Assembly (NCBI RefSeq): GCF_900156045.1
Contig: NZ_FTMX01000002.1
Span: forward strand, 806,001-870,000
DNA from: Peribacillus simplex
Lineage (GTDB): Bacteria; Bacillota; Bacilli; Bacillales; DSM-1321
Reading direction: 5' to 3'
Length of the DNA stretch: 64,000 bases
In this document: in pieces, positions 19,176-40,961 of the stretch
Position numbering within the stretch: the stretch's first letter is position 1
How the letters are laid out: each line of letters starts with the position of its first letter
The notes under the pieces: model-generated
Seen by the model: the letters and a program-made list of their open reading frames with translations, nothing else
What the model was told of the DNA's origin: nothing
Database searches by the model: none
Program-made: the position numbers and the translations under genes

Positions 19176-20225
19176 CTATTCTTGATAACAATTGAATTTT
19201 ACCTTGGAATATTTAAGCAAAAATCCATTCGATAATGGATCGTCTCGATGAATATAAAACTCATGTTTCCCCATGATATAGGCATTGCCGGTAATCTCAG
19301 GTATAACTGCTTTAAAATGACCTACTGTTGTTTCCTCTAACAAACGTCCTTTAAATGCAGTTTCAATTATGCCTTCCGTTACAAATTCCTCATTCAATGA
19401 AAGCTGTTCAATTGCGTGCATTCGTGCCAATTGGGCCGATAATCCGGTCCCACAGGCTGACCGCGCAACCTGACCGTCGCCAAAGACGGCTACATTCTTT
19501 GTGTGAACTCCCTCATTATTTGACCCATCTAGAAACAGGACCAAATCCACCTTGTTAATTTCGCTTTTTAGCGGATGCTCCACCTTGATCTGTTGATTGA
19601 TTGCATCTCGGATTTTCTTCCCTATTTCCCCCAGTTTATCTGCATTTTCCGGAACTAAGTCCAACCCAATATCATTGCAATAGACAAACCCAAAGAAGCT
19701 TCCGCCGAAAGAAATATCCACATAAATATCGCCAAGCTCTTCTACAAACACCTTTATTTCCTCTCCCCAATAGAAAGCTGGGACATTCACAAATGATACG
19801 CTTTCCACCCTGTTGTTTTTCCGCTTTGCACAAACCTTTACCAATCCTGCAGGAGTGTCAAGTGTCAGGAAGACTTCGTCCCCCTCTTTTTTGATAATTC
19901 CCGTTTCCAATAGGGCAGTGGTCACCCCAATGGTGCCATGACCGCACATATTTAGGTAGGCTTGGGTATCCATAAATACCACTCCAATATCTGCAGCAGG
20001 ATTCACAGGCTCTAATAACACAGCGCCAAACATATCCCTATGGCCTCTTGGCTCGAGGATTAAGCTCGAGCGGATATAATCACATTCTTCGATTAGTTTC
20101 TTCTTTTTTTCCAACATGGTTCTGCCTTCTATTTTTGGGAGCCCTTCCACTACAATTCTGGTTGGATCACCCATTGTATGTGTATCAATCGTTTTGACGA
20201 TTAAATCGTTTTCATTTTCTATCAT
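19176..20225 (-). CDS. Proline racemase superfamily enzyme, Cys/Cys type (proline racemase or 4-hydroxyproline 2-epimerase)
   Basis: The 349-residue protein carries both catalytic Cys of the racemase/epimerase type: C94 in LNMCGHGTIG and C258 in SACGTGLSAQ. Cys/Cys members invert the alpha carbon of proline or trans-4-hydroxyproline; dehydratase members have Thr in place of the first Cys. The neighbours (pyrroline-2-carboxylate reductase type, proline dehydrogenase, P5C dehydrogenase) place it in proline/hydroxyproline use. AGGAGGAATAAGC precedes the ATG. A 20-bp palindrome at 20304-20323 and an rpiR relic lie immediately upstream. Confidence 0.88.
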   Translation of the reverse strand: MIENENDLIVKTIDTHTMGDPTRIVVEGLPKIEGRTMLEKKKKLIEECDYIRSSLILEPRGHRDMFGAVLLEPVNPAADIGVVFMDTQAYLNMCGHGTIGVTTALLETGIIKKEGDEVFLTLDTPAGLVKVCAKRKNNRVESVSFVNVPAFYWGEEIKVFVEELGDIYVDISFGGSFFGFVYCNDIGLDLVPENADKLGEIGKKIRDAINQQIKVEHPLKSEINKVDLVLFLDGSNNEGVHTKNVAVFGDGQVARSACGTGLSAQLARMHAIEQLSLNEEFVTEGIIETAFKGRLLEETTVGHFKAVIPEITGNAYIMGKHEFYIHRDDPLSNGFLLKYSKVKFNCYQE

Positions 20226-20303: not shown

Positions 20304-20323
20304 AAAGGAATATTTATACCTTT
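20304..20323. promoter_or_regulatory. RpiR-type operator, copy 1
   Basis: AAAGGAATATTTATACCTTT is a near-perfect palindrome. Two relatives of exactly the same length occur at 25994-26013 and 32375-32394, each between an rpiR gene or relic and its neighbour. Confidence 0.7.
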
Positions 20324-20385
20324 CTATTTAAAAAATAAAGGCATGGAGAAGCGTTTATTTGCTTTGTCCATACCTTATCTTTTGA

Positions 20386-20622
20386 TTATTCCGAAATAAT
20401 TTTATATTCTAATAATGATTTTACCCCGATACTTGATTTTTTGAATCGAGGTTTTCGAATGTCTTTCCCTAATTCAATGACAATCGCCGCTACCAATGCA
20501 ATGATCGGTATGAAGGTAAAGTGTTTTTCACTTGGTTTTACCTTTAGTAGGACGTTGTTAAAACCGGCAATTGGACATGACAAATAATCGGGACATGAAG
20601 AAGCCTTTACTCTGACCAACAC
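20386..20622 (-). pseudogene. Relic of an RpiR-type regulator (SIS-domain end only)
   Basis: The 78-codon frame matches the C-terminal part of the intact RpiR protein at 32470-33384: DYLSCPI, then a lysine-rich segment, E-K-H/Y-F, PIIALV and IELGK align in order. The HTH and most of the sugar-isomerase domain are absent. I read it as the decayed remainder of a second rpiR gene that once stood before the racemase gene, in the same position the intact rpiR has before its OCD neighbour. Confidence 0.75.
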
Positions 20623-20703
20623 ACTTGGTTTTCTTCCGGAATATGTCTAGCTCCTACTCCCTGTCACATTACAATGCCCCTTTCTGAATAGATACTACTT
20701 TTA

Positions 20704-21681
20704 TTAATGGGTAATTTCACATCTTTCCACTAATTTAGTGTAAACAGCAATAGAAAGTGCGATATCTAAGACACCGGATCCGACACTTTCATAGAGCGTG
20801 ATTTCTTGCTCATTTTCTCTTTTTGAAATTTTTCCAGTTAGCACATCTCCCACCGTACCTGACACTTTGTCTTTGGTAATCTTTCCTTGTTCGAATGGAA
20901 TCAAAATATCACCGGCGGCTTCCCATAAACCCTCAACGTGTTCCGTGATTACTTTATCCGATTTCAGTACTGTTTCTGTATCAATTTCCTGCATAAAAGA
21001 GGTAAAAGAACCAATCGCGTTGATATGTGTACCTGGTTTGACTGAACTTCCTTTAAAAACAGGAGTGAGTGAGGTAGTACAAGTACAGATGATATCAGAG
21101 GATGACACGCACTCGTCAGCCGTTTTAGCCGCAATGATTTTATATGGCCGATTTTTAATCTTTTCAATTCTTTCAATAAAACTTTCTACTCGTTCAGGAT
21201 TAATATCATACACGTAAAGTTCCTCAATAGGTCGAATTTCTTGGATGGCCAATACTTGAGAGAACGCTTGGAGTCCTGAGCCGATAACTCCTAGTTTGTT
21301 GGCATCTTCTCTTGCCATTAAGTCAGTAGCGATTGCTGCACTGCCGCCTGTTTTGATGGCAGTCAGATAGTTCGCATCAATGAGTGCTTGAAGTTCGCCA
21401 GTTTCAGCTGAATATAAGCTTATTTTAGAGATTGTACTAGGCAGACCTTTTTTCAAATTCCCAGGGAAAACAGATGAGAATTTTGATCCGAAGAAAGGTT
21501 TGTTCGTACAATTAGCGACTAACCATTGTCCCACATTTTTTTCGCCGCGAATAGGCATAAAAATACGGTTTCCTGCATAAATTTCCCCTTTAACACAATC
21601 TTCATAAGCCTCCTTGATAACAGGGAGAACCAATTCCATCTCAAGTATATTTTGTACTTGTTCTTCTGTAATTTGTCGCAT
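20704..21681 (-). CDS. Ornithine cyclodeaminase/mu-crystallin family reductase, probable pyrroline-2-carboxylate reductase
   Basis: The 325-residue protein shows the OCD family pattern: MRQITEEQVQNILEMELVLPVIKEAYEDC at the start, a central TAIKTGGSAAIATDLMAREDA and the dinucleotide-binding loop LGVIGSGLQAFSQVLAI. Some members of this family reduce the cyclic imine pyrroline-2-carboxylate to L-proline, the step that follows dehydration of trans-3-hydroxyproline. It lies 148 bases after the Ser/Cys racemase-superfamily gene on the same strand, so a dehydratase-reductase pair is plausible. Alternatives are alanine dehydrogenase or ketimine reductase activity. GGAGGATATT precedes the ATG. Confidence 0.82.
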   Translation of the reverse strand: MRQITEEQVQNILEMELVLPVIKEAYEDCVKGEIYAGNRIFMPIRGEKNVGQWLVANCTNKPFFGSKFSSVFPGNLKKGLPSTISKISLYSAETGELQALIDANYLTAIKTGGSAAIATDLMAREDANKLGVIGSGLQAFSQVLAIQEIRPIEELYVYDINPERVESFIERIEKIKNRPYKIIAAKTADECVSSSDIICTCTTSLTPVFKGSSVKPGTHINAIGSFTSFMQEIDTETVLKSDKVITEHVEGLWEAAGDILIPFEQGKITKDKVSGTVGDVLTGKISKRENEQEITLYESVGSGVLDIALSIAVYTKLVERCEITH

Positions 21682-21829
21682 AATATCCTCCTTATATTTA
21701 AATAGTGTCTATTATTATATAAATTTTACTTTTTTGAAATTTGTATAACTATGATGGATTTTGGTTAATTTTTTATACAAAAACCAATTACTACTATTTA
21801 TATATTCAGTTTAATTTTCAAAAACTCCC

Positions 21830-22882
21830 TTATGCCCAAATATCTCCTATACTGAATCCGTTAGGAAAAGGATCCGTTGGATCAAGTACATAAGTGTTAA
21901 ATCCAGTAATCCACGCCTGGCCTTTAACAGTTGGAACGACAGCTTTATAGTCACCGATTTTAACCTCATCAACAAGACGACCATTATATACTGTCCCTAA
22001 TATCCCTTCGTGTCGGAAATCTTGATTTATTTTCAATTCACCCTTCGCATACAAGGTAGCCATCTTTGCACAAGTTCCAGTTCCGCAAGGACACCTATCC
22101 AAAGCACCTGTCCATGTAGAAGAGTCATTCCAGTCAAGATCTCCGGAAGCAACATTTACGACATTTTTCCAGTCTGCTTCCGGATTAGAAGAAGGCCCTG
22201 AAAGCTGGGAAATCGTTATTCCGACCCCTGGATAATCTGGATGTTCTACGGGTAATTGCTCCTGAGCTGCTTTACGTATCATAGATGAAATACGGGCAAT
22301 TTCATGTCCATGTTCAGGAATAAGTTCAAGTCCTTCAAATTGACGAACATCAGCAATTACATAGAACATCCCTCCCCATCCTACATCCACCTTTACTTTT
22401 CCTAAATGAGGTACATCAATTTCTGCATCGATATATGGTGCAAAAGCCGGAACATTCTTAAATGTTACGTTCGTCACTTTACCATTTGAACATTCTGCTT
22501 TTACACGAATAAGTCCAGCAGGAGCTTCGAGTGTTAGCTCAGTAACCGGCTCCTTCATTGGCAGCATGCCCGTTTCCAAAAGTACTGTAACAACAGCGAT
22601 GGTATTACCACCAGACATAACTGGATATTCAACCTGCTCCATAATAATGTAACCGGCATCCGCCTCTGGATGCTTAGGCGGTACGATAAGGTTACAACAA
22701 AGAGGAGGATACCCCCTCGGTTCCCTTAACATAAGCATTCTTAGCTGGTCATCGTTTTCCTGTAGCCAACGCATCTGTTCATAAACTGTATTTCCAGGTA
22801 TATGAGGAACTCCTCCAGTAATTACACGCATTGGTTCACCTGAATGAGTATCTACTGCGTGAATCATTCTTTTAAAACTCAT
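21830..22882 (-). CDS. Proline racemase superfamily enzyme, Ser/Cys type (hydroxyproline dehydratase/epimerase candidate)
   Basis: The 350-residue protein is in the proline racemase superfamily but its first catalytic position is Ser90 in PVMSGGNTI, where racemases have CGHGT; even the usual His is replaced. The second catalytic Cys is C266 in CPCGTGTCAK. Known subgroups use Cys/Cys for racemases and epimerases and Thr/Cys for trans-3-hydroxyproline dehydratase; Ser/Cys proteins are less well defined. Paired with an OCD-type reductase, a hydroxyproline dehydratase or epimerase role is the best inference. The ATG follows AGGAGTGATT. Confidence 0.83.
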   Translation of the reverse strand: MSFKRMIHAVDTHSGEPMRVITGGVPHIPGNTVYEQMRWLQENDDQLRMLMLREPRGYPPLCCNLIVPPKHPEADAGYIIMEQVEYPVMSGGNTIAVVTVLLETGMLPMKEPVTELTLEAPAGLIRVKAECSNGKVTNVTFKNVPAFAPYIDAEIDVPHLGKVKVDVGWGGMFYVIADVRQFEGLELIPEHGHEIARISSMIRKAAQEQLPVEHPDYPGVGITISQLSGPSSNPEADWKNVVNVASGDLDWNDSSTWTGALDRCPCGTGTCAKMATLYAKGELKINQDFRHEGILGTVYNGRLVDEVKIGDYKAVVPTVKGQAWITGFNTYVLDPTDPFPNGFSIGDIWA

Positions 22883-23049
22883 ATCTAATCACTCCTATGC
22901 TTTTATTCCATATTCATTAAATATTAACTTCCTGACCAATCCCTAAATTTTCAGCTTTTTTATATACATAATTACCAATAGAGGCATCGAACAAGGCCAT
23001 TTACCGGTTTTAATAGAATAAGACTGTCATTTTTCAGTACTTTTGTTTT

Positions 23050-23880
23050 CTCAGATAATAAAATCGGATAATAGGATCACCTCATGATCTTTAACCCAAC
23101 CTTTTTCCATCGAATCTATAATATCACCACACTCTATCTTTCCTTGTTCCGAATCAATATTATGATAACCGGCTTGATCAAACAAAGTTTGCGGCAATTC
23201 TCTCATATTACTTTTGTAAGATCCTTGCCCATACAACTAACTTATTTTTATAGAGCTCCGTATCGTCCGGAAGTACTGGAGAGATGGATGTAGTTGCAGT
23301 AATAATGATTTCTGAATTTCGAACCAGCTCACTTTTATCTGTAACCGGTATAATTTCAACTTCTTTATTCGAAATAATTCGAAACTTTCGAATAAGCGAC
23401 TTTATTTTTTCCGAAGATCGATTATATAAATAAAATCTTTTTACAGAAGTAGCTGATTAAGCCGCAATAAGCTGGTACAATCCCTGCATTCTAGTTCCTA
23501 CTAAACCAGACTGTTTCAGCATTTTTCATAAGACTCCGCATAGCAACTCCAGAAACGGCAGCTGTTTATATCGCTGTCAAAATTGTGCCGTTTATTATAG
23601 ATAATAAATTACCCGTTTCTCTATCGTTTATTAACAATAAGCCATGTGTTACCGGACTATCGGTTTTGTAATTTGATGAGTAGGAAGTGACTACTTTTAG
23701 TCCGATGCAATAGTCAACAAAACAGGGCATTATCAGCAGATTATCTTCGCCCTTTACTTCTGAAAAAGTGCGGGCTGGCATCACAAAATCTTTATTCGCA
23801 TATTTGCCTCTTCAATTACATTTATTACTTCTTCCATTGACAGGGAACTTTCGACGTCCTTTTCTGAAAGTAATAACAAA
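23050..23880 (-). pseudogene. Decayed ornithine-cyclodeaminase-family gene, copy A
   Basis: Minus-strand fragments in order match OCD proteins. Near 23880 is LLLSEKDVESSLSMEEVINVIEEA. At 23784-23566 come PARTFSEVKGEDNLLIMPCFVDY and GLKVVTSYSSN, ending in LLSIINGTILTAI. Around 23310 is a Val-Ala-Val-Ile-Met-Ile-Ser stretch, and at 23236-23051 MRELPQTLFDQAGYHNID and CGDIIDSMEKGW. Stops and frameshifts separate them, so no full protein is possible. It sits between the Ser/Cys enzyme and the first MFS transporter and represents a third OCD-type enzyme lost from the island. Confidence 0.8.
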
Positions 23881-23908
23881 AAAACGCCTCTTTACTACAA
23901 CTAATCAT

Positions 23909-25285
23909 TTAAACTGTCTCTCTCTTAGGATTAAGCTCACTGCCAGGTTTACTGCTAGGTTTGTTTAAAGCACTTGTCTCTGCCAGAGTCATATTCCTGG
24001 TCTCTGGAGCCATCACGAATGAAATTAAAAACCCTATAAAAAACAGGGCTGCACAGCAGTACATGGTGACAGCAATCCCGTATGTACTCAAGATGAGTGG
24101 AAATAAAAATGTACTCAGAGAGGCACCAATCCGACTCACGCCGGTGCCAAATCCAACAGCTGTTCCTCTAATTTTTGTCGGAAACAATTCATTTGGATAA
24201 ATCCATTGGTGGATATTCATACTAGTGTTGAAAATACCATAAATGATAAACAGCGAAATGGTGAAGGCAAATGACATCTGCCAGCTTGACGTTATCCCTA
24301 ATATCACTAAAACAACCGCGGAGACTAAAAACGGCCAAATTAGCACTGGTCTTCTTCCGATTTTCTCTACCAGAAATACTGCCGGCAATAATCCGACTAA
24401 ATAGAAGAGGCTCATAATCGCAGAACCCAGATACTCCTTGTTTCCATCCGCAAATCCAAATTCCCCTAATACTTGAGGGATGTAGGTTGCAATCGCAAAG
24501 GCAGGAGCCACTTGAAGCGTCCAAAATAGGGCGATGAAGAGGGTCCACTTTCCATACCCATTTTTAAACATGTCCATAAATGACGTCTTTTCTTTCGTTT
24601 CCAAGGACTCGGAGAGGACCACACCTTTTCCAAAGACCCCTTGAATGATTGCGTTGGCTTCTTTTTCTTTTCCCTTACTTGCCAGCCAAAGAGGGGATTC
24701 TGGCATCTTTAAGCGGCCAAGTAAAAGAATGAGCGCCGGAACGGCACTGCTTGCAAGCATCCAGCGCCAGCTGTCCTCACCCAGACCCAGCATCCAATAC
24801 CCCACCAAGAAGGATGCACCGTAGCCAACATACCACAGGGCAATTAGTCCGCCAAGCAAGGCGCCCCGCTGCTTGCGAGGGGCAAACTCCGCCATATACG
24901 TAGCGGAAATCGGATTATCAGCACCCACTGCAACCCCTAAAATAAAACGTAAAATGATAAGCTGTACCGGGTCATTCACAAAAAACTGGGGAATCGAGGC
25001 AAGGACAAAAACGGCTAAATCGAGAAGAAACATCGTCTTTCGTCCAATAAGATCCGTTAAGTAGCCCCCAATTATTCCGCCAAAAAACATCCCGACATAC
25101 ATAGCCATTGCGATCATACCAACTACGGTTAACGACATATCAAACTGGGGCTGTAAAACGGCCAGGGCCACTGCAATGATACCAATAATGTACCCATCAA
25201 TAAAGGCTCCTCCGCCGGTATAAAAAAACATTTGGTAGTGAAATTTACCCAAAGGCATTTCTTCAAGTGTGCGAACTTTATTCAT
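23909..25285 (-). CDS. MFS transporter, sugar/aromatic-acid porter type, paralogue 1
   Basis: From the ATG at 25285 (GGAGGGGAG just before it) the product is 458 residues, exactly the length of its paralogue at 27198-28574; an upstream in-frame start at 25384 would add 33 unrelated residues. Twelve membrane segments are expected. The motifs GYLTDLIGRKTMF, PESPLWLASKGKEKEA, GRRPVLIW and APETRNM are those of the metabolite:H+ symporters. The two copies are very similar over their whole length. In motif GADNPISATYMAEF (122-134) this copy has N124, S127 and A128 where the other has Tyr, Ala and Gly. Its place in the island suggests uptake of a proline or hydroxyproline compound. Confidence 0.85.
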   Translation of the reverse strand: MNKVRTLEEMPLGKFHYQMFFYTGGGAFIDGYIIGIIAVALAVLQPQFDMSLTVVGMIAMAMYVGMFFGGIIGGYLTDLIGRKTMFLLDLAVFVLASIPQFFVNDPVQLIILRFILGVAVGADNPISATYMAEFAPRKQRGALLGGLIALWYVGYGASFLVGYWMLGLGEDSWRWMLASSAVPALILLLGRLKMPESPLWLASKGKEKEANAIIQGVFGKGVVLSESLETKEKTSFMDMFKNGYGKWTLFIALFWTLQVAPAFAIATYIPQVLGEFGFADGNKEYLGSAIMSLFYLVGLLPAVFLVEKIGRRPVLIWPFLVSAVVLVILGITSSWQMSFAFTISLFIIYGIFNTSMNIHQWIYPNELFPTKIRGTAVGFGTGVSRIGASLSTFLFPLILSTYGIAVTMYCCAALFFIGFLISFVMAPETRNMTLAETSALNKPSSKPGSELNPKRETV

Positions 25286-25454
25286 AACTCCCCTCCAAAA
25301 TTCAGAATATTTATTAAAAAACAAATTATTCATCAACCCATTTTTTCCAATCATTAAGAGTCTTTCAATATTTTGCTTTGGCAACCGGCAGCAGTTGGTT
25401 CAAGATGTCTTCCTGCTTGATCGTGCTTCAGGGGAGTACGTCATAAAGATGCTT

Positions 25455-25905
25455 ACTTACCATTGATGATGTCTCCTAGATTAAGAACATCCTCCTTCAG
25501 ATAAAACACCATCTCGTACTGCAAACTTACTTTTTCTATATTGATAACGTTTACATTTAACTCAAGTTGCAATTCTTTTGCGAATTGCTTCGTTTTAATT
25601 TTCCTTTTTTAAACATGCCTGTTGCAGCCATTAGCTAAATTTTATTGGGATACCTACCCCAATGATTCCTATGCTGACTGAGGCAACGCTTGGTATAGCT
25701 GCAAAATATCGGCTCTTCAGTTTCAAGCCCTCCCAATGAATGACCAATTTAAAAGTTGGATTACTTCTTTGTGACGATTGTTCAAACGTTCCAAATGTAC
25801 GATTCTATACCTTCAGCTTGAATTCTGTCCTCTTGTGAGAAGTAAATAAAACTGATCCTTTTTACTTTGAGCTAGTTTTGCAAGCTTCTCAACAGTACTC
25901 ATAAC
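25455..25905 (-). pseudogene. Decayed ornithine-cyclodeaminase-family gene, copy B
   Basis: The DNA aligns piecewise with the intact OCD gene at 31224-32294. 25455-25530 matches 31385-31450 (GATGATGTCTCCTAGATTA is shared word for word), 25540-25635 matches 31660-31800 (AACGTTTACATTTA and TCTTTTGCGAATTG shared) and 25720-25880 matches 32090-32250. Large internal deletions and stops have removed most of the gene. Its promoter and operator (25951-26013) are still recognisable. Confidence 0.82.
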
Positions 25906-25950
25906 ACCTCCTTTTCTGTTTGAATTATCTAAAAATTTAACTTTAGATGT

Positions 25951-25979
25951 ATATTAGCATCAAATAGACTCGATGCAAA
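25951..25979 (-). promoter_or_regulatory. Remnant promoter of OCD relic copy B
   Basis: On the minus strand TTTGCA (25979-25974) and TAATAT (25956-25951) are spaced by 17 bases, the same geometry and much the same sequence as the promoter at 32332-32360. Confidence 0.6.
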
Positions 25980-25993
25980 CCTTTTTTTTGAAA

Positions 25994-26013
25994 AAAGGTA
26001 TAATTATTCCTTT
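25994..26013. promoter_or_regulatory. RpiR-type operator, copy 2
   Basis: AAAGGTATAATTATTCCTTT is a palindrome lying 14 bases upstream of the relic -35 box, the same distance as in copy 3. Confidence 0.7.
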
Positions 26014-26045
26014 TGAATTAAAAAAAAATATTGCCTTATACGTTT

Positions 26046-26330
26046 CAAATGGCTACAGCTTCCATAATTCCAATAATTGGTATTGCTATAAAATGCTTTT
26101 CACCGTCACTACCTAACGATTCAAATATTTTAGATCTTATTTTATTATTTATGGACATATTAACTGTTTCTGATTTAGGCGATTAAGCTGATGTTGAGAC
26201 AACAACAGTCATTCCTCTTATAAAGGCCTCGGGATATGGAAGTTTTAAGGAATTTGATAAGGAATTTCACCCAAATACTATATTTAGTTTTTTCAACATG
26301 GTAGGATCACAAAAGTCGTTTTCGAGTGAT
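26046..26330. pseudogene. Scrambled relic of an rpiR regulator gene
   Basis: On the minus strand about 26046-26110 reads GEKHFIAIPIIGIMEAVAI, matching the SIS-domain end of the intact RpiR (GEKYFTIMPIIALVESIVV). On the plus strand about 26155-26275 reads LTVSDLGD, a stop, then ADVETTTVIPLIKASGYGSFKEFDKEFH, matching the RpiR helix-turn-helix (FTVKELARNANVGTTTVLRL...). The two parts now face opposite directions, so the gene has been both truncated and inverted. Confidence 0.75.
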
Positions 26331-26398
26331 AATAGTAAACCCTATTGATCAATAAATATTTGCTGGAATGAAAATGAGAAATTGGGATTCATTCAACA

Positions 26399-26580
26399 AT
26401 TGCGCCCTTAATTGAATAACAAAGTTTCAATTAACTGGTTTATTTAAGTAAAGAAAAAGCTGCCTTAAAGCAACCCAGATTTTAAGTTCGCGCACTCTCT
26501 CAATTTTAATATATTTCTCTAAATAAACAGTTTTCAATTAAGGTCTTTTTAAGTAAAGGAAAGTGACGAAATTAGGGTAA
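26399..26580. repeat. Dispersed intergenic repeat-like sequence
   Basis: GCGCCCTTAATTGAATAA (26402-26419) resembles CGTTAGTTGAAGAA found at 33983-33996 and 44207-44220. A second half-similar stretch (TTCAATTAA...TTTAAGTAAAG) recurs within the segment, near 26429 and 26535. It looks like worn copies of an intergenic element; no coding is visible. Confidence 0.4.
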
Positions 26581-26680
26581 AATAATGTTTTAGCCATTTG
26601 AAAAACTTATTAAAATTAACAAGAAATTTATTCTTTAGTTTCGTTTCTTTCATGGCACTTTATATATTATAGTGAAACTT

Positions 26681-26842
26681 TCAAGTAGTTACTAAAGTAG
26701 AACAATAATCACTAAAGTAAACTACTTCTGAAAGAATCTTACAACCCTTGATTTTGTCAAAAGCTTCTTTTGCTTCTTTTTCTTCAGCAAACTCAAACAT
26801 TGTGGTATTATTTTTTTCTGAATAAACAGTGATTACCCACAT
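26681..26842 (-). CDS. Small conserved-looking protein of unknown function (53 residues)
   Basis: The minus-strand frame starts MWVITVYSEKNNTTMFEFAEEKEAKEAFDKIKGCKILSEVVYFSDY and has a strong GGAGG eight to ten bases before the ATG. The pattern (short beta strand, FEF, then a Glu/Lys/Ala helix, then strand) looks like a compact folded protein rather than chance. I believe similar proteins occur in other Bacillaceae but cannot confirm it here. No function can be given. It is intact although surrounded by decayed genes. Confidence 0.7.
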   Translation of the reverse strand: MWVITVYSEKNNTTMFEFAEEKEAKEAFDKIKGCKILSEVVYFSDYCSTLVTT

Positions 26843-27197
26843 CTTAAAAAATCCTCCAACTAATATTTGTAATTCTTTTTCTTTATCATCATTGACAAAT
26901 TATACATGAAAGAGGTGATTTTTATATTTAGTTAGCAATTTGTCACTTATCAATCTAAAAATTCAATTTCTTCAGATCGGTTTATAAGGGAAATTGTAAT
27001 GCTATTTCTATATTTAGTATCGTGGAAGTTATACATTTGATTAGAAAAATAGATTAATTGAGACTAGTCTGTTATCCTTACATAAACGCTTATCAAAGTT
27101 TATTAACTTTCCGCCATTCGCTATGCACCTACACCTAAAAGAAGGACTATTGTAGGGTTTTCTGCATATCTTCTTGAAGATATACCCCTTACTTTTA
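26843..27197. other. Intergenic stretch downstream of the second MFS gene
   Basis: AT-rich. A short hairpin ATATCTTC-AA-GAAGATAT lies at about 27166-27183, close to the MFS stop codon, without a T-run. No gene recognised. Confidence 0.5.
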
Positions 27198-28574
27198 TTA
27201 AATAATCTTTTTCCCTGAATTTGATTGGTAGCTAAGTTTATTGGTTCTTTTGTTTAATGTACTTGTTTCGGCTAAGCTCATATTTCGGGTCTCTGGCGCC
27301 ATTACCAATGAAACTAGAAAACCTATAAAAAAGAGACCGGCACAGATATAGAGAGTGACCCCCAATCCATACTTGCTTAAAATCACCGGAAACAAAAATG
27401 TACTCAAAGAAGAACCAATGCGGCTTACACCTGTCCCAAATCCTAGGGCTGTTCCTCGAATCTTCGTTGGAAACAATTCATTGGGATAAATCCATTGGTG
27501 AATACTCATCCCGGTGTTAAAAATACCATAAATAACAAATAACATAATCGTAAATGCAAAGGACATATGCCAACTTGATGTAAGGCCGAGTGTAGTTAAA
27601 ATAATCGCTGACACTAAGAAGGGCCAGATTAAGACCGGTCTTCTTCCGATTTTCTCGACTAAATAAAGGGCGGGGAATAAGCCTACTATATAAAACAGAC
27701 TCATAATGGCCGAGCCTAAATATTCTTTGTTTCCATCCGCGAAGCCAAATAGACCTAATACTTCAGGGATATAGGTAGCGATCGCAAAGGAAGGGGCCAC
27801 TTGAAGCGTCCAGAATAAGGCAATAAAGATGGTCCACTTGCCATACCCATTCTTAAACATATCCATAAAAGACGTCTTTTCTTCTGCTTCAAAGGACTCG
27901 GAGAGGACCACGTTTTTTCCAAAAATCCCTTGAACAATCCCATTTGCCTCTTTTTCTCTTCCTTTACTCGCGAGCCAAAGAGGAGATTCTGGCATCTTTA
28001 AACGAGCGAGTAAAATAATAATGGCAGGAAGGGCACTGCTCGCCAACATCCAACGCCAGCTATCCTCACCTAGCGCCAACATAAAATATCCGACCAAGTA
28101 AGACACGCCGTAGCCCACATACCATAATGCAACTAGCCCACCAAGCAAAGCTCCCCGGTTCTTTTTAGGCGCAAACTCTGCCATATACGTGCCCGCAATT
28201 GGATAATCAGCACCAACCGCCAGGCCTAAAATAAAGCGTAAAATGATGAGTTGCATGGGGTCTTGTGCAAAATATTGGAGAACGGAGGCAATTACGAAAA
28301 CCACTAAATCCAAAATAAACATCGTCTTTCGCCCAATCAAATCCGTTAAATATCCTCCAAGGATTCCGCCAAAAAACATGCCGACTAACGCCGCCATTCC
28401 TACCAGACCAACGGTTGTCAAGGACAGGTCAAACTGTGGCTGCAAAACGGCTAAAGCAACTGCGATGATCCCAATGATGTACCCATCAATAAAGGCTCCA
28501 CCGCCGGTGTAGAAAAACATTTGAAAATGAAATTTACGTAAAGGCATTTCTTCGAGTGTACGTATTTGATTCAT
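27198..28574 (-). CDS. MFS transporter, sugar/aromatic-acid porter type, paralogue 2
   Basis: This 458-residue carrier is the close duplicate of the product of 23909-25285, starting MNQIRTLEEMPLRKFHFQMFF behind a GGGAGGGGAAC ribosome binding site. It retains the common family reading GADYPIAGTYMAEF near residue 122, so it is probably closer to the ancestral function than paralogue 1. It lies 102 bases after the P5C dehydrogenase gene on the same strand; a hairpin at 28618-28669 in that gap may lower read-through. It most likely imports the substrate of the put-type operon. Confidence 0.86.
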   Translation of the reverse strand: MNQIRTLEEMPLRKFHFQMFFYTGGGAFIDGYIIGIIAVALAVLQPQFDLSLTTVGLVGMAALVGMFFGGILGGYLTDLIGRKTMFILDLVVFVIASVLQYFAQDPMQLIILRFILGLAVGADYPIAGTYMAEFAPKKNRGALLGGLVALWYVGYGVSYLVGYFMLALGEDSWRWMLASSALPAIIILLARLKMPESPLWLASKGREKEANGIVQGIFGKNVVLSESFEAEEKTSFMDMFKNGYGKWTIFIALFWTLQVAPSFAIATYIPEVLGLFGFADGNKEYLGSAIMSLFYIVGLFPALYLVEKIGRRPVLIWPFLVSAIILTTLGLTSSWHMSFAFTIMLFVIYGIFNTGMSIHQWIYPNELFPTKIRGTALGFGTGVSRIGSSLSTFLFPVILSKYGLGVTLYICAGLFFIGFLVSLVMAPETRNMSLAETSTLNKRTNKLSYQSNSGKKII

Positions 28575-28617
28575 AGTTCCCCTCCCAACTTTAGAAAATT
28601 AACCCATTATCTATTGG

Positions 28618-28669
28618 ATGAAAAGCCTACTCCCCCCTATTAGATAAGGGAGGAATGTAAGCTTTTCAT
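28618..28669. terminator. Hairpin between P5C dehydrogenase and MFS genes
   Basis: ATGAAAAGCCTAC (28618-28630) pairs with GTAAGCTTTTCAT (28657-28669) with one mismatch. The T-run is short (CTTTTC), so it could be a partial terminator or an mRNA processing/stability element. Confidence 0.55.
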
Positions 28670-28676
28670 TACCTTC

Positions 28677-30248
28677 TTAGTGTTGAATCGTGTGGAGCTT
28701 TCCTTGACTGAACAGTTTGAGGTAGTCATAACTGCCTGCTTTAGAATCCGTGCCGGATAAGTTAAACCCACCGAATGGATGAACACCGACCAGTGCACCG
28801 GTCACATTGCGGTTAATGTATAAGTTTCCGCAGTACATACGCTCAATCGCTTGGTTAATCCTTTCTTCGTTAGAGGAGAAGAAACCGCCTGTTAGGCCAT
28901 ATTCTGTATTATTGTAAATCTCAATTGCTTCTTCCCAATCTTTCGCTTTGGCAATCGTAAGGACAGGTCCGAAGATTTCTTCTTGCATAATCGTACTGTT
29001 TGGCTCGGCATCAATGAAAATGGTAGGTTGAATATAGTAACCTTCTTCACTGCCTGTAACGCCACCTAATACTAACTTCGCCTCTTTTTTTCCAATCTCA
29101 ATGTAGTTAAGAATCGTATTAAAGGCTTTTTGATCAATAACTGGGCCCACACAATAGTTTTCTTCTCCGTTTCCTAGTTTAAGCTCACTCGCTAACAGAA
29201 TGACTTTCTGAATTAATTCATCATATACACTTTCTACAATAATCGCACGCGAGCCAGCTGAACATTTTTGTCCTTGGAAACTGAACGCGGAGGAAACAAT
29301 GGATTTAGCAGCTGCATCTAAGTCCGCCGTTTCATCGATTACAATGCCATCTTTCCCGCCCATTTCAGCATTGACGCGTTTGATCCATTTTTGTCCTTTC
29401 GCTGTTTTTCCAGCGAGTTCATTAATATGAAGACCGACATCTTTCGATCCAGTGAAACTAATAAAGCGTGTAAGAGGATGACCCGTGATATAGTCGCCCA
29501 TGATGGATGAATCACCAGGTATAAAGTTGATTACTCCTTTAGGCAGGCCGATTTCTTCCATTAACTCCACAAATTTATAGGCAATAATGGGTGTCACAGA
29601 AGCCGGCTTTAGGAGCGTTGTATTTCCCGTTACAACAGCTGATACCGTTAAACCTGTACAAATGGCCAATGGGAAGTTCCAAGGCGGAACAATAAAGCCG
29701 ACCCCTAATGGGATATACGTCAGTCTATTTGTTTCAGCCGGGATTCGTTTTACATAATGTGTATCCTCTTCCAATTGGATCATAGATCTTCCGTAGTATT
29801 CCATAAAGTCAATGGCCTCTGACACTTCTGCATCAGCTTCTTCGTAGTTTTTACCTGCTTCTAATATTAAAACAGCTGAGAATTCATGACGTTTTTTTCT
29901 CATTAAATCGGCAGCTTTGAATAAATAATCAGCGCGCTTCTCAGGACGTACTTGTTTCCACGTTCCGAAGGTGTTCGTTGCCGTTTGGATCGCTGTCTCT
30001 GCCATTTCACGGTCCACTTTACTCATATAACCGATGATTTCATCTGTCTTTCCTGGGTTAATCGAGGTAATCTTCTCCTCCGTATAAATCTTTTCTCCTC
30101 CGATAATAACAGGATAGTCTTTTCCTAATTCTTGCCGGAAGGATAGGATTGCTTCTTTTAAAGCTTGGACCTCACGGTCTTTTGAAAAGTCTGTATTAGG
30201 TTCGTTTGTGAAGGTATCCAATTTTAGTGTTTGTAGCATATTTGACAT
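28677..30248 (-). CDS. putC: L-glutamate gamma-semialdehyde (P5C) dehydrogenase
   Basis: The 523-residue aldehyde dehydrogenase oxidises glutamate semialdehyde to glutamate with NAD, the second step of proline breakdown. Family marks are PPWNFPLAI (cofactor pocket), FTGSKDVG, the catalytic-region Glu in NAEMGGKDGIV, the catalytic Cys in FQGQKCSAGSRAI, and EEIFGPVLTI near the end. It has a 20-30 residue N-terminal extension like B. subtilis PutC/RocA. It is 23 bases after putB with a clear AGGAGGAAAAAAC site, so both are co-translated from one message. Confidence 0.94.
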   Translation of the reverse strand: MSNMLQTLKLDTFTNEPNTDFSKDREVQALKEAILSFRQELGKDYPVIIGGEKIYTEEKITSINPGKTDEIIGYMSKVDREMAETAIQTATNTFGTWKQVRPEKRADYLFKAADLMRKKRHEFSAVLILEAGKNYEEADAEVSEAIDFMEYYGRSMIQLEEDTHYVKRIPAETNRLTYIPLGVGFIVPPWNFPLAICTGLTVSAVVTGNTTLLKPASVTPIIAYKFVELMEEIGLPKGVINFIPGDSSIMGDYITGHPLTRFISFTGSKDVGLHINELAGKTAKGQKWIKRVNAEMGGKDGIVIDETADLDAAAKSIVSSAFSFQGQKCSAGSRAIIVESVYDELIQKVILLASELKLGNGEENYCVGPVIDQKAFNTILNYIEIGKKEAKLVLGGVTGSEEGYYIQPTIFIDAEPNSTIMQEEIFGPVLTIAKAKDWEEAIEIYNNTEYGLTGGFFSSNEERINQAIERMYCGNLYINRNVTGALVGVHPFGGFNLSGTDSKAGSYDYLKLFSQGKLHTIQH

Positions 30249-30271
30249 GTTTTTTCCTCCTAAAATGTTTT

Positions 30272-31186
30272 TTATTTAAAAGTATTTTTTAATACAAACG
30301 AGACATTTTCAGGTCGTTCCGCAAGTCTGCGCATAAAATAGCCGAACCAATCCGTCCCGTAAGGGACATATACGCGCACTTTATACCCGAGATTAGCTAA
30401 TTTCTTTTGAAGATCCGAACGAATCCCGTATAGCATTTGAAATTCGAACTGCGTTTTTGGAATGCCCTGTTGCTCGGTAAATTGAATCACTTTCTCCACC
30501 ATGACATCATCATGAGTCGCAATGCCTGCATAGTTCCCATTTAACAAATGCGTTTTAATGATTTTTTCATAGTTTTTGTCCACGTCACTTTTTTTCGGAA
30601 AGGCCACACTGATGGGTTCTTTATAAGCCCCCTTGACTAACCGGAGGTTGGCATTGTATCGATTCAAGTCATGAATGTCTTCTTCTGTTCGATACAGATA
30701 AGCTTGAATAACGGTACCAATATTTTCGTACTCTTTTCTCAGTTCTTTATAAATATCCAATGTCAATTGACAGTGCGAATAATCTTCCATTTCAATACGG
30801 ACAAAGTTTCCATATACTCGAGCTCGATCCAAAATCAGCTTGAGATTTTGAATACATAAGTCCTTACTGATATCTAATCCAAGTGATGTAATCTTGACGG
30901 AGAGATTACTGTCGATTCCACTCTCATGAATGGCATCAAGGGTCTTTAAACAATTTTCTGTTGCTTCCAATGCGGCTTCAACCGTGAACACATATTCACC
31001 TAGGTAGTTCAGCATGGCAACCATGCCATTTTGATTAATCTTACGCACACATTCAATCGCTTGTTCCGTGACATCTCCAGCCACAAAACGTCTAGCACCA
31101 AACTTAAGTCCATATTTTTTGGCCATCTTATTGGCCGTCTTATTCTTAGCAAGCGTCTGAAAAGTATTGCTTAACAATTTCTCCAT
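30272..31186 (-). CDS. putB: Proline dehydrogenase
   Basis: The 304-residue FAD enzyme (TIM-barrel, monofunctional type) converts proline to P5C. Typical segments are the YLGEYV strand, SVKITSLGLDIS, VRIEMEDYSHC, RLVKGAYKEP, ATHDD, EFQMLYGIR and VRVYVPYGTDWFGYFMRRLAERPEN at the C-terminus. The ATG at 31186 is preceded by GGGGGGCAG; an upstream in-frame ATG at 31204 overlaps that site. It lies between the OCD gene and putC in an apparent operon. No putR-type regulator is present; RpiR is the only regulator in the island. Confidence 0.94.
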   Translation of the reverse strand: MEKLLSNTFQTLAKNKTANKMAKKYGLKFGARRFVAGDVTEQAIECVRKINQNGMVAMLNYLGEYVFTVEAALEATENCLKTLDAIHESGIDSNLSVKITSLGLDISKDLCIQNLKLILDRARVYGNFVRIEMEDYSHCQLTLDIYKELRKEYENIGTVIQAYLYRTEEDIHDLNRYNANLRLVKGAYKEPISVAFPKKSDVDKNYEKIIKTHLLNGNYAGIATHDDVMVEKVIQFTEQQGIPKTQFEFQMLYGIRSDLQKKLANLGYKVRVYVPYGTDWFGYFMRRLAERPENVSFVLKNTFK

Positions 31187-31223
31187 TCTGCCCCCCCATT
31201 TCATATGCCCCCCTATTCAACTT

Positions 31224-32294
31224 TTACAGCCAATGTGGATGCTCCCATAAAGCTAAATCCTTACCAACGCCTTTTTCTTTAGCACTTTTGTAGACACGAT
31301 ATGCCTCCGAAACATCGTGGATCGACATCCCGATTGGATTAAATAATATTTTTTGCTTAGGACATTCTCTACCAGTAACTTTACCGTTGATGATGTCTCC
31401 TAGATTATGAACATCCTCTTCAGACAGTACACCATCTCGTACTGCACGGTAACTTACGTCTACTCCGTGATGCTTCACATGTTCGAAATCATCCACGACG
31501 ACTTTATCATAATGAACTAATTCTTTTGGATCAGTATCCCAGAAAGAAATTTCAGAGTGGAATGCTCCTTCTTTTAGCCACTCTCCTTTTACATAAGGGA
31601 AAGTTGACATTGTTGCCGTAATAACAATATCTGATTCTCGAATGGCTTCTTCTGCACTCGCTGCATTGACAACGTTTACATTTAGCTCTAATTCCATTTC
31701 TTTTGCGAATTGTTTTGTTTTCTCCTCATTCAAATCGAATACTTTAATTTGCTCAATTTGATTTTTAAACACGCCTGTTACAGCCATTAACTGTGTTCTA
31801 CTTTGGACACCTGCTCCAATAATACCTACTGTACGCGAATCCGGGTTAGCAAGATATTTCGCAGCTATTCCAGTTGCTGCTCCAGTTCTCATAGCGCTTA
31901 CAATTGTTCCATCCATAATTGCTAGTGGAAAACCATTATGAGGATCGGAGAGAATAATAATAGCAGAAGCTCTCGGTTGTCCAATTTTTCTTGGGTTTTC
32001 AGGCATGCTTGGAATCCATTTCATTCCCGCTACATCAATCTCACCTCCAAGAAAAGAAGGCATCGTCATTATTCTTCCTCTTGTCTCTTCTGTTTCAGGT
32101 CCTCCCCAGCGAATGACCGGTTTAGAAGGTTGGACTACCTCGTTGCGACCGTGTAATTCAAAAGACTTTTGAATCGCCTCAAGTGTACCATCCATGTCCA
32201 GACCACCAGCTTCGATGCAGTCTTCCTGTGAGAGATAGATAAAACCAACTCGTTTATTTTGCTGTACATTGTCTAGTATTTTAACTGTACTCAT
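31224..32294 (-). CDS. Ornithine cyclodeaminase/mu-crystallin family reductase, second intact copy
   Basis: The 356-residue protein is longer than the OCD family member at 20704-21681 and belongs to a different branch (IYLSQEDCIEAGGLDMDGTLEAIQKSFELH, then GIIGAGVQSRTQLMAV as dinucleotide loop and AMRTGAATGIAAKYL). As the first gene of the OCD-putB-putC operon it probably feeds proline into the dehydrogenase, for example by reducing pyrroline-2-carboxylate. Ornithine cyclodeaminase, which yields proline directly, is an alternative that fits equally well. It has its own promoter with an upstream palindrome. Confidence 0.83.
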   Translation of the reverse strand: MSTVKILDNVQQNKRVGFIYLSQEDCIEAGGLDMDGTLEAIQKSFELHGRNEVVQPSKPVIRWGGPETEETRGRIMTMPSFLGGEIDVAGMKWIPSMPENPRKIGQPRASAIIILSDPHNGFPLAIMDGTIVSAMRTGAATGIAAKYLANPDSRTVGIIGAGVQSRTQLMAVTGVFKNQIEQIKVFDLNEEKTKQFAKEMELELNVNVVNAASAEEAIRESDIVITATMSTFPYVKGEWLKEGAFHSEISFWDTDPKELVHYDKVVVDDFEHVKHHGVDVSYRAVRDGVLSEEDVHNLGDIINGKVTGRECPKQKILFNPIGMSIHDVSEAYRVYKSAKEKGVGKDLALWEHPHWL

Positions 32295-32331
32295 ATTAAC
32301 TCTCCTTTTTTTGAATTATTTGATAATTCGT

Positions 32332-32360
32332 ATATTAGCACCATTTAGATTCAATGTAAA
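32332..32360 (-). promoter_or_regulatory. Promoter of the OCD-putB-putC operon
   Basis: On the minus strand TTTACA (32360-32355) and TAATAT (32337-32332) are spaced by 17 bases. The same module, slightly changed, precedes OCD relic B. Confidence 0.75.
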
Positions 32361-32374
32361 CCATTTTATTTAAA

Positions 32375-32394
32375 AAAGGTTCTTTTGTTCCTTT
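32375..32394. promoter_or_regulatory. RpiR-type operator, copy 3
   Basis: AAAGGTTCTTTTGTTCCTTT lies 14 bases upstream of the -35 box, an activator-like position, and directly downstream of the intact rpiR gene. Confidence 0.72.
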
Positions 32395-32411
32395 CTAGAG
32401 TTTAATTAACA

Positions 32412-32468
32412 AAAAAAAGACATTACATGTAAATTTCTAATGAAATTACAATAATAATGTCTTTTTTT
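32412..32468 (-). terminator. Terminator of the rpiR gene
   Basis: A-rich AAAAAAAGACATTA (32412-32425) pairs exactly with TAATGTCTTTTTTT (32455-32468). Confidence 0.8.
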
Positions 32469-32469
32469 A

Positions 32470-33384
32470 TTAATCTACTATAACTTTCTTTTCTTTCAAT
32501 GTTTCCACTAAGTTTGTTATTTGTTGAATTGAAGTTTTCGAATTCCTTTTTCCTAATTCCACTACAATCGATTCTACGAGAGCAATAATTGGCATTATTG
32601 TGAAATATTTTTCCCCAGTTTCGACTTTTAAAATAACCTTTGAAAATGTGGAGATAGGACACGACAAATAATCCGTAATTAATACAATGGGGATCCCTTG
32701 CTTGTAGGCTACACTTGCAGCGTCAATTGTCCGTTGTGGATATGGGGAAAACCCAAATACAATCATTACTTCGTTTTCTTTAAACTGTAATATTCGTTCA
32801 AACATCGACTCACTATCGTAACTGAGCTGTCTCGTGTTTGAGTGAAATTCTTCGATGAGGAGTTCTAAGTAAATAGCAACTGCTTTATAAGGTCTTAATC
32901 CGAGTAAATTAATTCTCGCAGCATTTGCGATTAGGTCCATAGCATCTCTGAAATTTTCAACCAACTGAGGGTTAAGTGATTTATTTAGCAATTGAACCCC
33001 TTCTTGCCAAACATTTGATAGCGTCTTATAGTCTTTGTCTTCATCATTACCTCCAAAAGACGCCTGCACATTTTCCCACTTGTCAGAGTAATCCCTTTGA
33101 ATTTCATGAAACTGTTTTTTCAACTCAAAAAAGCTATCGTAACCTAACGTCTTTACTAACCGTAAAACAGTTGTTGTACCTACATTAGCATTTCGGGCCA
33201 ATTCCTTAACTGTAAACATTTCAATATCTTTATGATTTTGCAGTATGTAATCACATAACTGCTTCTGTTTATTTGGCAAGTTATCTTTTATAAAAATGAT
33301 GTGATCCAACACATTGTTGTTTTCCTGAACTTTATTCACTATTCCACCTACTTTCGTTGTAAAATTCCCTTCATAATCTTTCAT
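32470..33384 (-). CDS. RpiR/MurR-family transcriptional regulator
   Basis: The 304-residue protein has the RpiR layout: an N-terminal HTH (MFTVKELARNANVGTTTVLRLVKTLGYDSFFELKKQF, about residues 54-90) and a C-terminal SIS domain (about 120-290). SIS domains bind phosphosugars or other small acids; in this setting the ligand is more likely a proline derivative. It is transcribed in the same direction as the OCD-putB-putC operon and separated from it by its terminator, the 20-bp palindrome and the operon promoter. Relics of two further rpiR genes are at 20386-20622 and 26046-26330. Confidence 0.9.
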   Translation of the reverse strand: MKDYEGNFTTKVGGIVNKVQENNNVLDHIIFIKDNLPNKQKQLCDYILQNHKDIEMFTVKELARNANVGTTTVLRLVKTLGYDSFFELKKQFHEIQRDYSDKWENVQASFGGNDEDKDYKTLSNVWQEGVQLLNKSLNPQLVENFRDAMDLIANAARINLLGLRPYKAVAIYLELLIEEFHSNTRQLSYDSESMFERILQFKENEVMIVFGFSPYPQRTIDAASVAYKQGIPIVLITDYLSCPISTFSKVILKVETGEKYFTIMPIIALVESIVVELGKRNSKTSIQQITNLVETLKEKKVIVD

Positions 33385-40097: not shown

Positions 40098-40961
40098 ATG
40101 ATAAAGAAAGCGGTGATTCCAGCAGCCGGTTTAGGAACACGATTTTTACCTGCCACGAAAGCTCAACCAAAGGAAATGCTGCCGATTGTCGATAAGCCGA
40201 CCATTCAATATATTATCGAGGAAGCTGTACAATCGGGGATTACAGATATTATCATCGTTACGGGTAAAAACAAACGTGCCATCGAAGATCATTTTGATAA
40301 ATCCATTGAACTTGAAATGCTTCTGCAATTGAAAGGTCAAAATGATCTGCTTAAGATCGTGGAGAACATTTCCAACATGGTGGATATCCACTATGTAAGA
40401 CAAAAAGAACCTTTGGGTCTAGGGCATGCAGTATTATGTGCCAAAACTTTTATCGGAGACGAACCTTTTGCCGTCCTGTTAGGGGATGATATTGTGGATA
40501 GCCAGGTTCCAGCCTTGAAGCAGTTGATGGAACGGTATAACAAGGTTCGTACGAGCATTATCGGATGTAAGGAAGTGTCACCTGCCGATATCTCCAAGTA
40601 TGGGATCGTAAATTTCCAAGAACGATATGAAGATTTATTTCTAGTAAGAAACTTGGTGGAAAAACCAAAAATGGAGGATGCACCATCAACACAGGCGATT
40701 ATTGGCCGGTATATTTTATCACCTGCGATTTTTGAAATCCTTGAAACCGTACAGCCGGATCGGAAGGGGGAAATCCAGCTTACCGAAGCTTTAGACCTTT
40801 TGTTAGAAAAGGAACCATTATACTCTTATATCATCGAAGGAAATCGATATGACGTCGGCGATAAATTCGGCTTCCTCCAGGCTTCATTAGATTTTGCCAT
40901 GAAACGACCTGAACTTCGTGATCAGCTAATAACATATTTAAGGCAGCTTTTCCCTTCATGA
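40098..40961 (+). CDS. galU: UTP--glucose-1-phosphate uridylyltransferase
   Basis: The 287-residue enzyme makes UDP-glucose, donor for wall glycosylation. It begins KAVIPAAGLGTRFLPATKAQPKEMLPIVDKPTIQYI (nucleotide-binding signature), with LGDDIVDS in the metal site and VEKP in the sugar site. B. subtilis GtaB/YngB/YtdA are homologues. An AAAAGGGGCTGGGCT site precedes the ATG. It is divergent from the YkoS-YkoT-GtrA operon and likely supplies its sugar donor. Confidence 0.93.
   Translation: MIKKAVIPAAGLGTRFLPATKAQPKEMLPIVDKPTIQYIIEEAVQSGITDIIIVTGKNKRAIEDHFDKSIELEMLLQLKGQNDLLKIVENISNMVDIHYVRQKEPLGLGHAVLCAKTFIGDEPFAVLLGDDIVDSQVPALKQLMERYNKVRTSIIGCKEVSPADISKYGIVNFQERYEDLFLVRNLVEKPKMEDAPSTQAIIGRYILSPAIFEILETVQPDRKGEIQLTEALDLLLEKEPLYSYIIEGNRYDVGDKFGFLQASLDFAMKRPELRDQLITYLRQLFPS

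Follow-up and report, generated by a model that had tools for sequence, protein, structure and literature searches.

Activators are known within the RpiR family, among them GlaR (YugA) of Lactococcus lactis (PMC6528599) and SpNanR of Streptococcus pneumoniae (PMC12713135). The gene for GlaR lies directly upstream of its co-directional target, the gal-lac operon, and the protein acts as an activator by binding ahead of the first gene of that operon; the pathway is one of sugar use, the word palindrome is absent from the paper, and its passages on the regulator give no spacing and no relic modules (PMC6528599). SpNanR, according to the sections that describe it, acts on sialic acid genes from a palindromic 18-bp sequence upstream of the promoter and not overlapping it, with several sites across one gene cluster, some of them cryptic; its recognition sequence, TCTGAAAGTACTTTTAGA, is located some 55 bp upstream of the -35 hexamer, and its effector is ManNAc-6-phosphate (PMC12713135). 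The same sections describe the repressor EcMurR, also of the RpiR family, with two adjacent DNA sites that overlap the -35 and -10 hexamers. Here we describe three 20-bp palindromes in a 64-kb stretch of Peribacillus simplex DNA (contig NZ_FTMX01000002.1, positions 806,001 to 870,000; hereafter the window), which adjoin RpiR-family genes or their relics. With a probability of roughly three in four, judged from sequence comparison, they are operators through which an RpiR-family activator controls (hydroxy)proline catabolism, and they were retained in cis as redundant genes acting in trans were lost. They share with GlaR the regulator gene directly upstream of a co-directional target operon and, by prediction, binding before the first target gene and activation; with SpNanR a palindrome clear of the promoter and several sites across one cluster; and with EcMurR a pair of adjacent sites. 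The site lies 14 to 15 nt upstream of the -35 hexamer, which differs from these systems. The closest described pathway is that for trans-3-hydroxy-L-proline in Bacilli, analysed through genome neighbourhoods, which has in common with this locus a racemase-family dehydratase, a pyrroline-2-carboxylate reductase of the ornithine cyclodeaminase (OCD) family and TRAP transporters; an RpiR operator is not named in the relevant passages (PMC4113996). In the open-licence literature on RpiR together with proline, hydroxyproline or racemase, no paper on this regulator was found by title or abstract start.

The pattern AAAGG-N10-CCTTT occurs at exactly three places in the window, all on the minus strand and each flanked by an rpiR gene or relic on one side and by the following gene or relic on the other, as an earlier note on this DNA had reported:

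32375..32394, minus strand: site W1, predicted RpiR operator, AAAGGAACAAAAGAACCTTT, from pattern search, alignment and matrix
25994..26013, minus strand: site W2, predicted RpiR operator, AAAGGAATAATTATACCTTT, from pattern search, alignment and matrix
20304..20323, minus strand: site W3, predicted RpiR operator, AAAGGTATAAATATTCCTTT, from pattern search and matrix, without a promoter in the conserved register

An intact rpiR and the OCD-family gene OCD1 flank W1; a partly inverted rpiR relic and an OCD1 relic flank W2; and W3 is flanked by an rpiR relic of 66 C-terminal residues and by RacA, a gene of the proline racemase family. The earlier description of a module repeated three times with palindromes of equal length stands as far as three units of rpiR or relic plus site and the length are concerned; the units are not plain copies of one another, and the symmetry is unequal, with 8, 9 and 6 of 10 positions paired in W3, W2 and W1, respectively. 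There is no fourth site, and shuffling yields a mean of 0.16 occurrences per window, with none of 100 shuffles reaching three. Across the genome (6.08 Mb), the half-site pattern was found at 25 places as against 20 for its reversed control, a rate of 0.26 per 64 kb, and the half-sites alone were rejected as evidence; a relaxed core with up to three mismatches was likewise set aside, being at background (123 and 115 vs 115 and 115). What is unusual is the cluster of three within 12 kb. The search pattern first proposed, AAAGGWWN8WWCCTTT, is two bases too long, the inner stretch being 10 bases. Because the half-site pattern is ordinary in this genome, evidence from other genomes was needed.

Neighbourhoods of rpiR in other genomes were retrieved, and the stretch from the end of rpiR to the next gene was aligned. 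The element was found in the genome G411 (RpiR 70% identical), beside three rpiR copies of the genome G438 (an intact copy at 70%, a frameshifted copy and a truncated copy at 81%) and, with RpiR at 71%, on a Cytobacillus oceanisediminis plasmid; at all five of these sites the gap to a -35-like hexamer is 14 nt. A symmetric weight matrix trained solely on these five sites places the three palindromes of the window at ranks 1 to 3 of the 64 kb, with scores of 26.8, 25.8 and 18.3, the fourth-best place scoring 15.4-15.6. That place (40808-40827) is within an open reading frame resembling a nucleotidyltransferase by eye, and was taken as chance. When each genome was left out of the training set in turn, the rpiR-linked site ranked top in each of the five other loci, a test in which, G438 and G411 being of one genus, the set retained that genus for four of the five; with both genomes left out, the sites of contigs C131 and C101 and of G411 were still the best near their rpiR. 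The full matrix also finds sites at loci outside the training set whose regulators are more distant: L061 (scores 21.6 and 19.1; RpiR identity 47-48%), L065 (16.5 twice; 39-41%) and L078 (15.8; 38%). The background, made up of 82 stretches of 2,850 bp from protein-selected loci only, has a maximum of 14.1; the last bases of each locus fall outside these stretches, and in the 280-kb pool one place outside them exceeds 16 (L069 at 14586, 17.3, about 6.8 kb from rpiR). A dyad-symmetric element is thus conserved at those orthologues of the regulator whose DNA was compared, and it is very likely the operator of this RpiR clade, as predicted from these comparisons. About 60 further orthologues are on record as proteins, with Metabacillus, Priestia, Schinkia and Neobacillus among the named genera. 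Family searches of G142 and G392 for further orthologues yielded nothing new, and a search of 398 genomes of the class returned, besides the window's own, only sister-clade RpiR.

The position of the element relative to the promoter is nearly constant. Two of the window's sites, at 25994 and 32375, precede promoter-like hexamer pairs at a distance of exactly 14 nt with a 17-nt spacer, confirming the earlier reading:

32332..32360, minus strand: promoter-like pair TTTACA-17-TAATAT with TG before the -10 hexamer, 14 nt from W1
25951..25979, minus strand: promoter-like pair TTTGCA-17-TAATAT, 14 nt from W2

These match the consensus at 9 of 12 (W1) and 8 of 12 positions (W2), and promoter-like matches as such are near chance across the region (50 vs 42.2, sd 5.5). 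A gap of exactly 14 nt is also seen in G438, in G411, on the Cytobacillus plasmid and in G142, four records besides the window. Under a rule of at least 8 of 12 sigma-A hexamer matches, a gap of 14 or 15 and a spacer of 16-18 on either strand, a rule fixed after the rpiR-linked sites had been inspected, 11 of the 13 rpiR-linked sites have a promoter-like pair in register: eight at 14 nt (W1, W2, three of G438, G411, Cytobacillus and one of L061) and three at 15 nt (both L065 sites and L078). By the same rule, 2 of 22 look-alikes elsewhere in this genome (L086, L088) and 5.9% of random window positions qualify. At L061, L065 and L078 the promoter-like pair is weak, with 8 to 9 of 12 matches. 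In the 11 cases with a promoter in register, the site never overlaps it; the -35 hexamer assumed to be in its usual place, the dyad would lie near -60, that is, upstream of the promoter in an activator-like position. Such an arrangement (upstream of -35, non-overlapping, at a near-constant distance, in 11 of 13 sites) is of the class I type: in Escherichia coli, CRP activates class I promoters from a dyad about 60 bp upstream of the start at a fixed distance from the -35 hexamer. CRP belongs to another protein family, and contact with polymerase, which in this class would raise transcription through the alpha subunit, is here proposed. An extra AAAGG half-site abuts the -35 hexamer in W2 (25980-25984, minus strand), in G411 and in G438 C131 (L060, L075), and is absent from the other copies; it recalls the degenerate half palindrome proposed near -35 for SpNanR in the passages of PMC12713135 on that promoter.

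Presence of the site follows the recognition helix of the regulator. The RpiR proteins at the loci compared have two helix types, VGTTTVxR and VG[IV]STVxR. All eight VGTTTVxR loci, including L076, whose rpiR is frameshifted, have a site with a score of 15.8 or higher no more than 1 kb from rpiR; at VG[IV]STVxR (sister-clade) loci, nothing above 10.7 was found within 1 kb of rpiR in any of 14. Outside these counts are L051/L077, where a truncated RpiR lacks the helix and the site is present, and L050, where an RpiR fragment also lacks the helix and there is no site (best score 11.2). Where the recognition helix differs, the site is absent (0 of 14 loci), a contrast that amounts to one event. 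The VG[IV]STVxR type adjoins genes of aldehyde dehydrogenase, a DHDPS-family protein and a flavin amine oxidoreductase in L046, and in L069 by annotation, neighbours that fit the 4-hydroxyproline pathway as outlined in part of PMC4113996. L046 (G000:C12:30000-48000) belongs to the same genome as the window and holds a second RpiR (46%) and an MFS gene 65% identical to MFS1 of the window; no matrix site was found there, in a search not aimed at an operator of its own.

The region around the sites contains one complete module and the remains of others:

32470..33384, minus strand: rpiR, intact RpiR-family regulator gene, 304 aa, HTH_6 and SIS domains, helix VGTTTVLRLVK (profile search)
31224..32294, minus strand: OCD1, ornithine cyclodeaminase/mu-crystallin family (profile search)
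30272..31204, minus strand: proline dehydrogenase family, Pfam Pro_dh (profile search)
28677..30248, minus strand: L-glutamate gamma-semialdehyde (P5C) dehydrogenase, above the NCBIfam cut-off
27198..28574, minus strand: MFS1 transporter (profile search)
26151..26384, plus strand: inverted rpiR relic piece of module 2, RpiR residues 54-132, 35% identity, E 3e-07
26071-26104, minus strand: further weak rpiR relic piece of module 2, E 0.46
25456..25892, minus strand: OCD1 relic of module 2, in pieces (sequence comparison)
23909..25285, minus strand: MFS2 transporter, open, first intact gene past W2, homologous start at 25285
21830..22882, minus strand: RacB, proline racemase family (Pfam)
20704..21681, minus strand: OCD2, ornithine cyclodeaminase family (profile search)
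20395..20592, minus strand: rpiR relic of module 3, C-terminal 66 residues (sequence comparison)
19176..20225, minus strand: RacA, proline racemase family, intact, next after W3 (Pfam)

Modules 1 and 2 are duplicates, with 65% DNA identity over 344 aligned bases, and MFS2 is 80.6% identical to MFS1 in protein. Because rpiR and, weakly, OCD relic pieces lie inverted, module 2 was rearranged and not only mutated; the OCD piece in question is at 25669-25710 on the plus strand (E 0.06). Module 3 is probably of separate origin, since its rpiR relic is closer to the Schinkia/Cytobacillus-plasmid homologues (61-65% over 65 residues) than to the intact RpiR of the window (52%). In both decayed modules an intact pathway gene lies past the site: MFS2 after W2 and RacA after W3. 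A comparable state is found in G438, where on contig C95 site and promoter are followed by an OCD1 stub (residues 2-120, with ACG at the start codon) and an intact OCD2, and on contig C101 by an OCD1 stub, a racemase fragment, dctPQM, another OCD gene and RacB. Among the matches listed, each of the two genomes has one intact VGTTTVxR rpiR. This picture agrees with a process in which redundant genes acting in trans are lost and sites acting in cis are kept; as a pattern, the salvage of operators from decaying modules is well supported, while selection for it is unproven. The proposal that site and distance outlived the decay of the surrounding genes holds in part: the promoter register survives in two of the three modules, the racemase module having no promoter in register. 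OCD2 and RacB of the window are 96.6% and 92% identical, respectively, to genes of G438 (L077, L076), a genome of another family of the same order that is estimated to be 5% contaminated, suggesting recent exchange of pathway genes.

The OCD1 product is likely a pyrroline-2-carboxylate reductase. Pyrroline-2-carboxylate is the product of 3-hydroxyproline dehydration in the pathway as set out in passages of PMC4113996. An OCD-family reductase with proline dehydrogenase and P5C dehydrogenase would take it to proline and then glutamate. The operon on the Cytobacillus plasmid also has a short gene annotated as aconitase X, a family reported as cis-3-hydroxy-L-proline dehydratase (PMC5144071). At the more distant loci, the sites adjoin other genes: a DctM-type transporter (L061, 10601-14046); an amidohydrolase with a family-5 (peptide-type) binding protein (L065, 9101-14645); and an OCD gene, an aldehyde dehydrogenase and a Rieske oxygenase (L078, 9317-13300). 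By these neighbours, the predicted operator type is therefore wider than proline breakdown.

Analysis of the locus suggests a mechanism in which RpiR (32470-33384) would bind the element some 60 bases upstream of where transcription likely starts, and would activate genes for breakdown of proline and 3-hydroxyproline, in response to an effector that is probably a (hydroxy)proline-derived metabolite rather than a phosphosugar. Activation from the site is considered likely. The head consisting of rpiR, operator, promoter and OCD1 probably spread by duplication and gene exchange; because one regulator in trans would suffice, surplus copies of rpiR and OCD1 could decay, and the operator, required in cis, would stay in place to serve whichever useful gene comes next, which is MFS2 or RacA in the window and OCD2 or a TRAP-OCD-racemase cluster in G438. 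For this RpiR clade the comparison thus predicts a specific operator sequence together with its geometry and its regulon, and it ties an RpiR/SIS protein to an amino-acid pathway; in two genomes, operators are left before intact genes although the adjoining regulator and enzyme genes have decayed, which gives a momentary view of the way in which duplication and trimming may enlarge a regulon. A bolder extension, which we offer tentatively and regard as somewhat doubtful, is that a mobile control head (rpiR-operator-promoter) spreads in Bacilli and is repeatedly pared to operator and promoter, such that a scattered hydroxyproline regulon captures genes behind the leftovers of one RpiR activator sensing an amino-acid-derived ligand.

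The proposal of an RpiR operator in an activator-like position draws support from the matrix built on other genomes, the tie to the helix type (8/8 vs 0/14) and the recurring 14-nt gap, and has to be weighed against rival explanations of the same palindromes. One of these accepts the RpiR operator and reverses the sign: RpiR would repress, either through a DNA loop or by masking an UP-element within the A-rich linker, and an inducer would release it. Repressors are known in the family, EcMurR with its overlapping sites being one in the passages cited (PMC12713135); the W1 promoter has 9 of 12 matches and a TG extension, and most copies have an A-rich linker separating the site from the -35 hexamer. 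Repression is nevertheless unlikely, since no overlap of site and promoter occurs in the 11 cases in register and the near-constant 14-15 nt, which puts the dyad near -60, is the distance that contact with polymerase would require. Binding of the palindrome by another regulator of the same pathway would be compatible with the fact that RpiR binding to the site is predicted; it is improbable given that the site lies within 1 kb of an rpiR of one helix type, co-directional or divergent, at all eight loci, while the target genes differ among them (OCD; TRAP; amidohydrolase and peptide-type binding protein). The likeness of the three sites could also reflect recent duplication of functionless DNA, and modules 1 and 2 are indeed duplicates; this is very improbable, as a matrix from other genomes finds all three sites and module 3, from a different rpiR lineage, still has one.

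That the palindrome is itself a transcription terminator or RNA hairpin at the 3' end of rpiR is suggested by its place after rpiR and by the T that follows, and was rejected as scarcely credible because of separate, stronger hairpins and of the loci L061 and L078, in which the site lies upstream of a divergent rpiR. Downstream of the window's intact rpiR, folding places such a hairpin between the stop codon and W1, which stricter pattern scanning for terminators did not pick up:

32395..32474, minus strand: hairpin with T-rich tail, -21.5 kcal/mol, predicted rpiR terminator

A T-tailed hairpin between the rpiR stop and the site is present in seven of eight alignable cases (-12.6 to -22.5 kcal/mol), as against -1.1 to -5.9 kcal/mol for the palindromes themselves, and would be the terminator of rpiR. 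Because these hairpins precede the site and the palindromes fold weakly, the rpiR transcript likely ends short of the site, which would then stand ahead of the target promoter without covering it. The hairpin at W2, which would have served the dead rpiR, is weaker (-10.2 kcal/mol), though site and promoter are whole; W3 is the opposite, with the hairpin kept (-20.9 kcal/mol) and the promoter missing. From W2 to MFS2 (25994 to 25285, on that strand) no terminator was detected by a pattern scan, which has low sensitivity, and a looser fold-based scan gave weak candidates only, near 25709 (-7.3 to -9.3 kcal/mol).

Several observations weigh against an RpiR activator acting through retained sites. 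Neither W3 nor one of the two L061 sites has a promoter in register; that of W1 is fair unaided, so that an activator is not strictly needed there. Selection on the relic copy W2 is plausible and not proven, the site (15/20), linker (11/14) and promoter (23/29) being just modestly better kept relative to W1 than the whole aligned stretch (65%). RpiR proteins of known ligand are mostly phosphosugar binders. Because the VG[IV]STVxR group is a single clade (100/100; midpoint root, the outgroups being too distant to place it), the contrast between helix and site is one evolutionary event, not 22 independent ones. A 40-base composite of site, 14 nt and TTTACA, allowed up to three mismatches in 397 genomes of the order, occurs at 21 places as against 10 for its reversed control; 18 of the 21 have no RpiR within the flanks retrieved, nine of these being accounted for by a repeat (G214, G190) and one sequence common to five genomes of a single genus. 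On the supporting side of the same search stand the excess over the control, the other three places, which adjoin RpiR genes or relics and include the sole perfect match (G411), and a stricter composite requiring both hexamers, found in the 397 genomes at two places, both in this window. Finally, one look-alike of this genome (L088 1501, G000:C11:469244-469263; matrix 9.9) has TTGACG-17-TATTAT (10/12) at 15 nt, outside long open frames and beyond any rpiR seen, and is either chance or a distant regulon member.

The five genomes with a common sequence (L103-L107, genus g49) share AAAGGAATTAATATTTCTTT-N14-TATACA outside long open frames and with no RpiR nearby, which may be another conserved element. 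Named racemase-enzyme models score below their cut-offs for RacB (338.7 vs 550) and RacA (319.5 vs 540), both proteins belonging to the Pfam proline racemase family. The RpiR of the window exceeds the cut-offs for an N-terminal HTH_6 domain (44.1 bits vs 28.3) and a C-terminal SIS domain (44.5 bits vs 25); among named NCBIfam subgroups the best model reaches 55.2 bits against a cut-off of 378, and by these profiles the protein is assigned to the general MurR/RpiR family only. Its closest named homologue is from Peribacillus simplex (96%), and the structures nearest to it by sequence are those of distant RpiR proteins (4ivn, E 3e-11).

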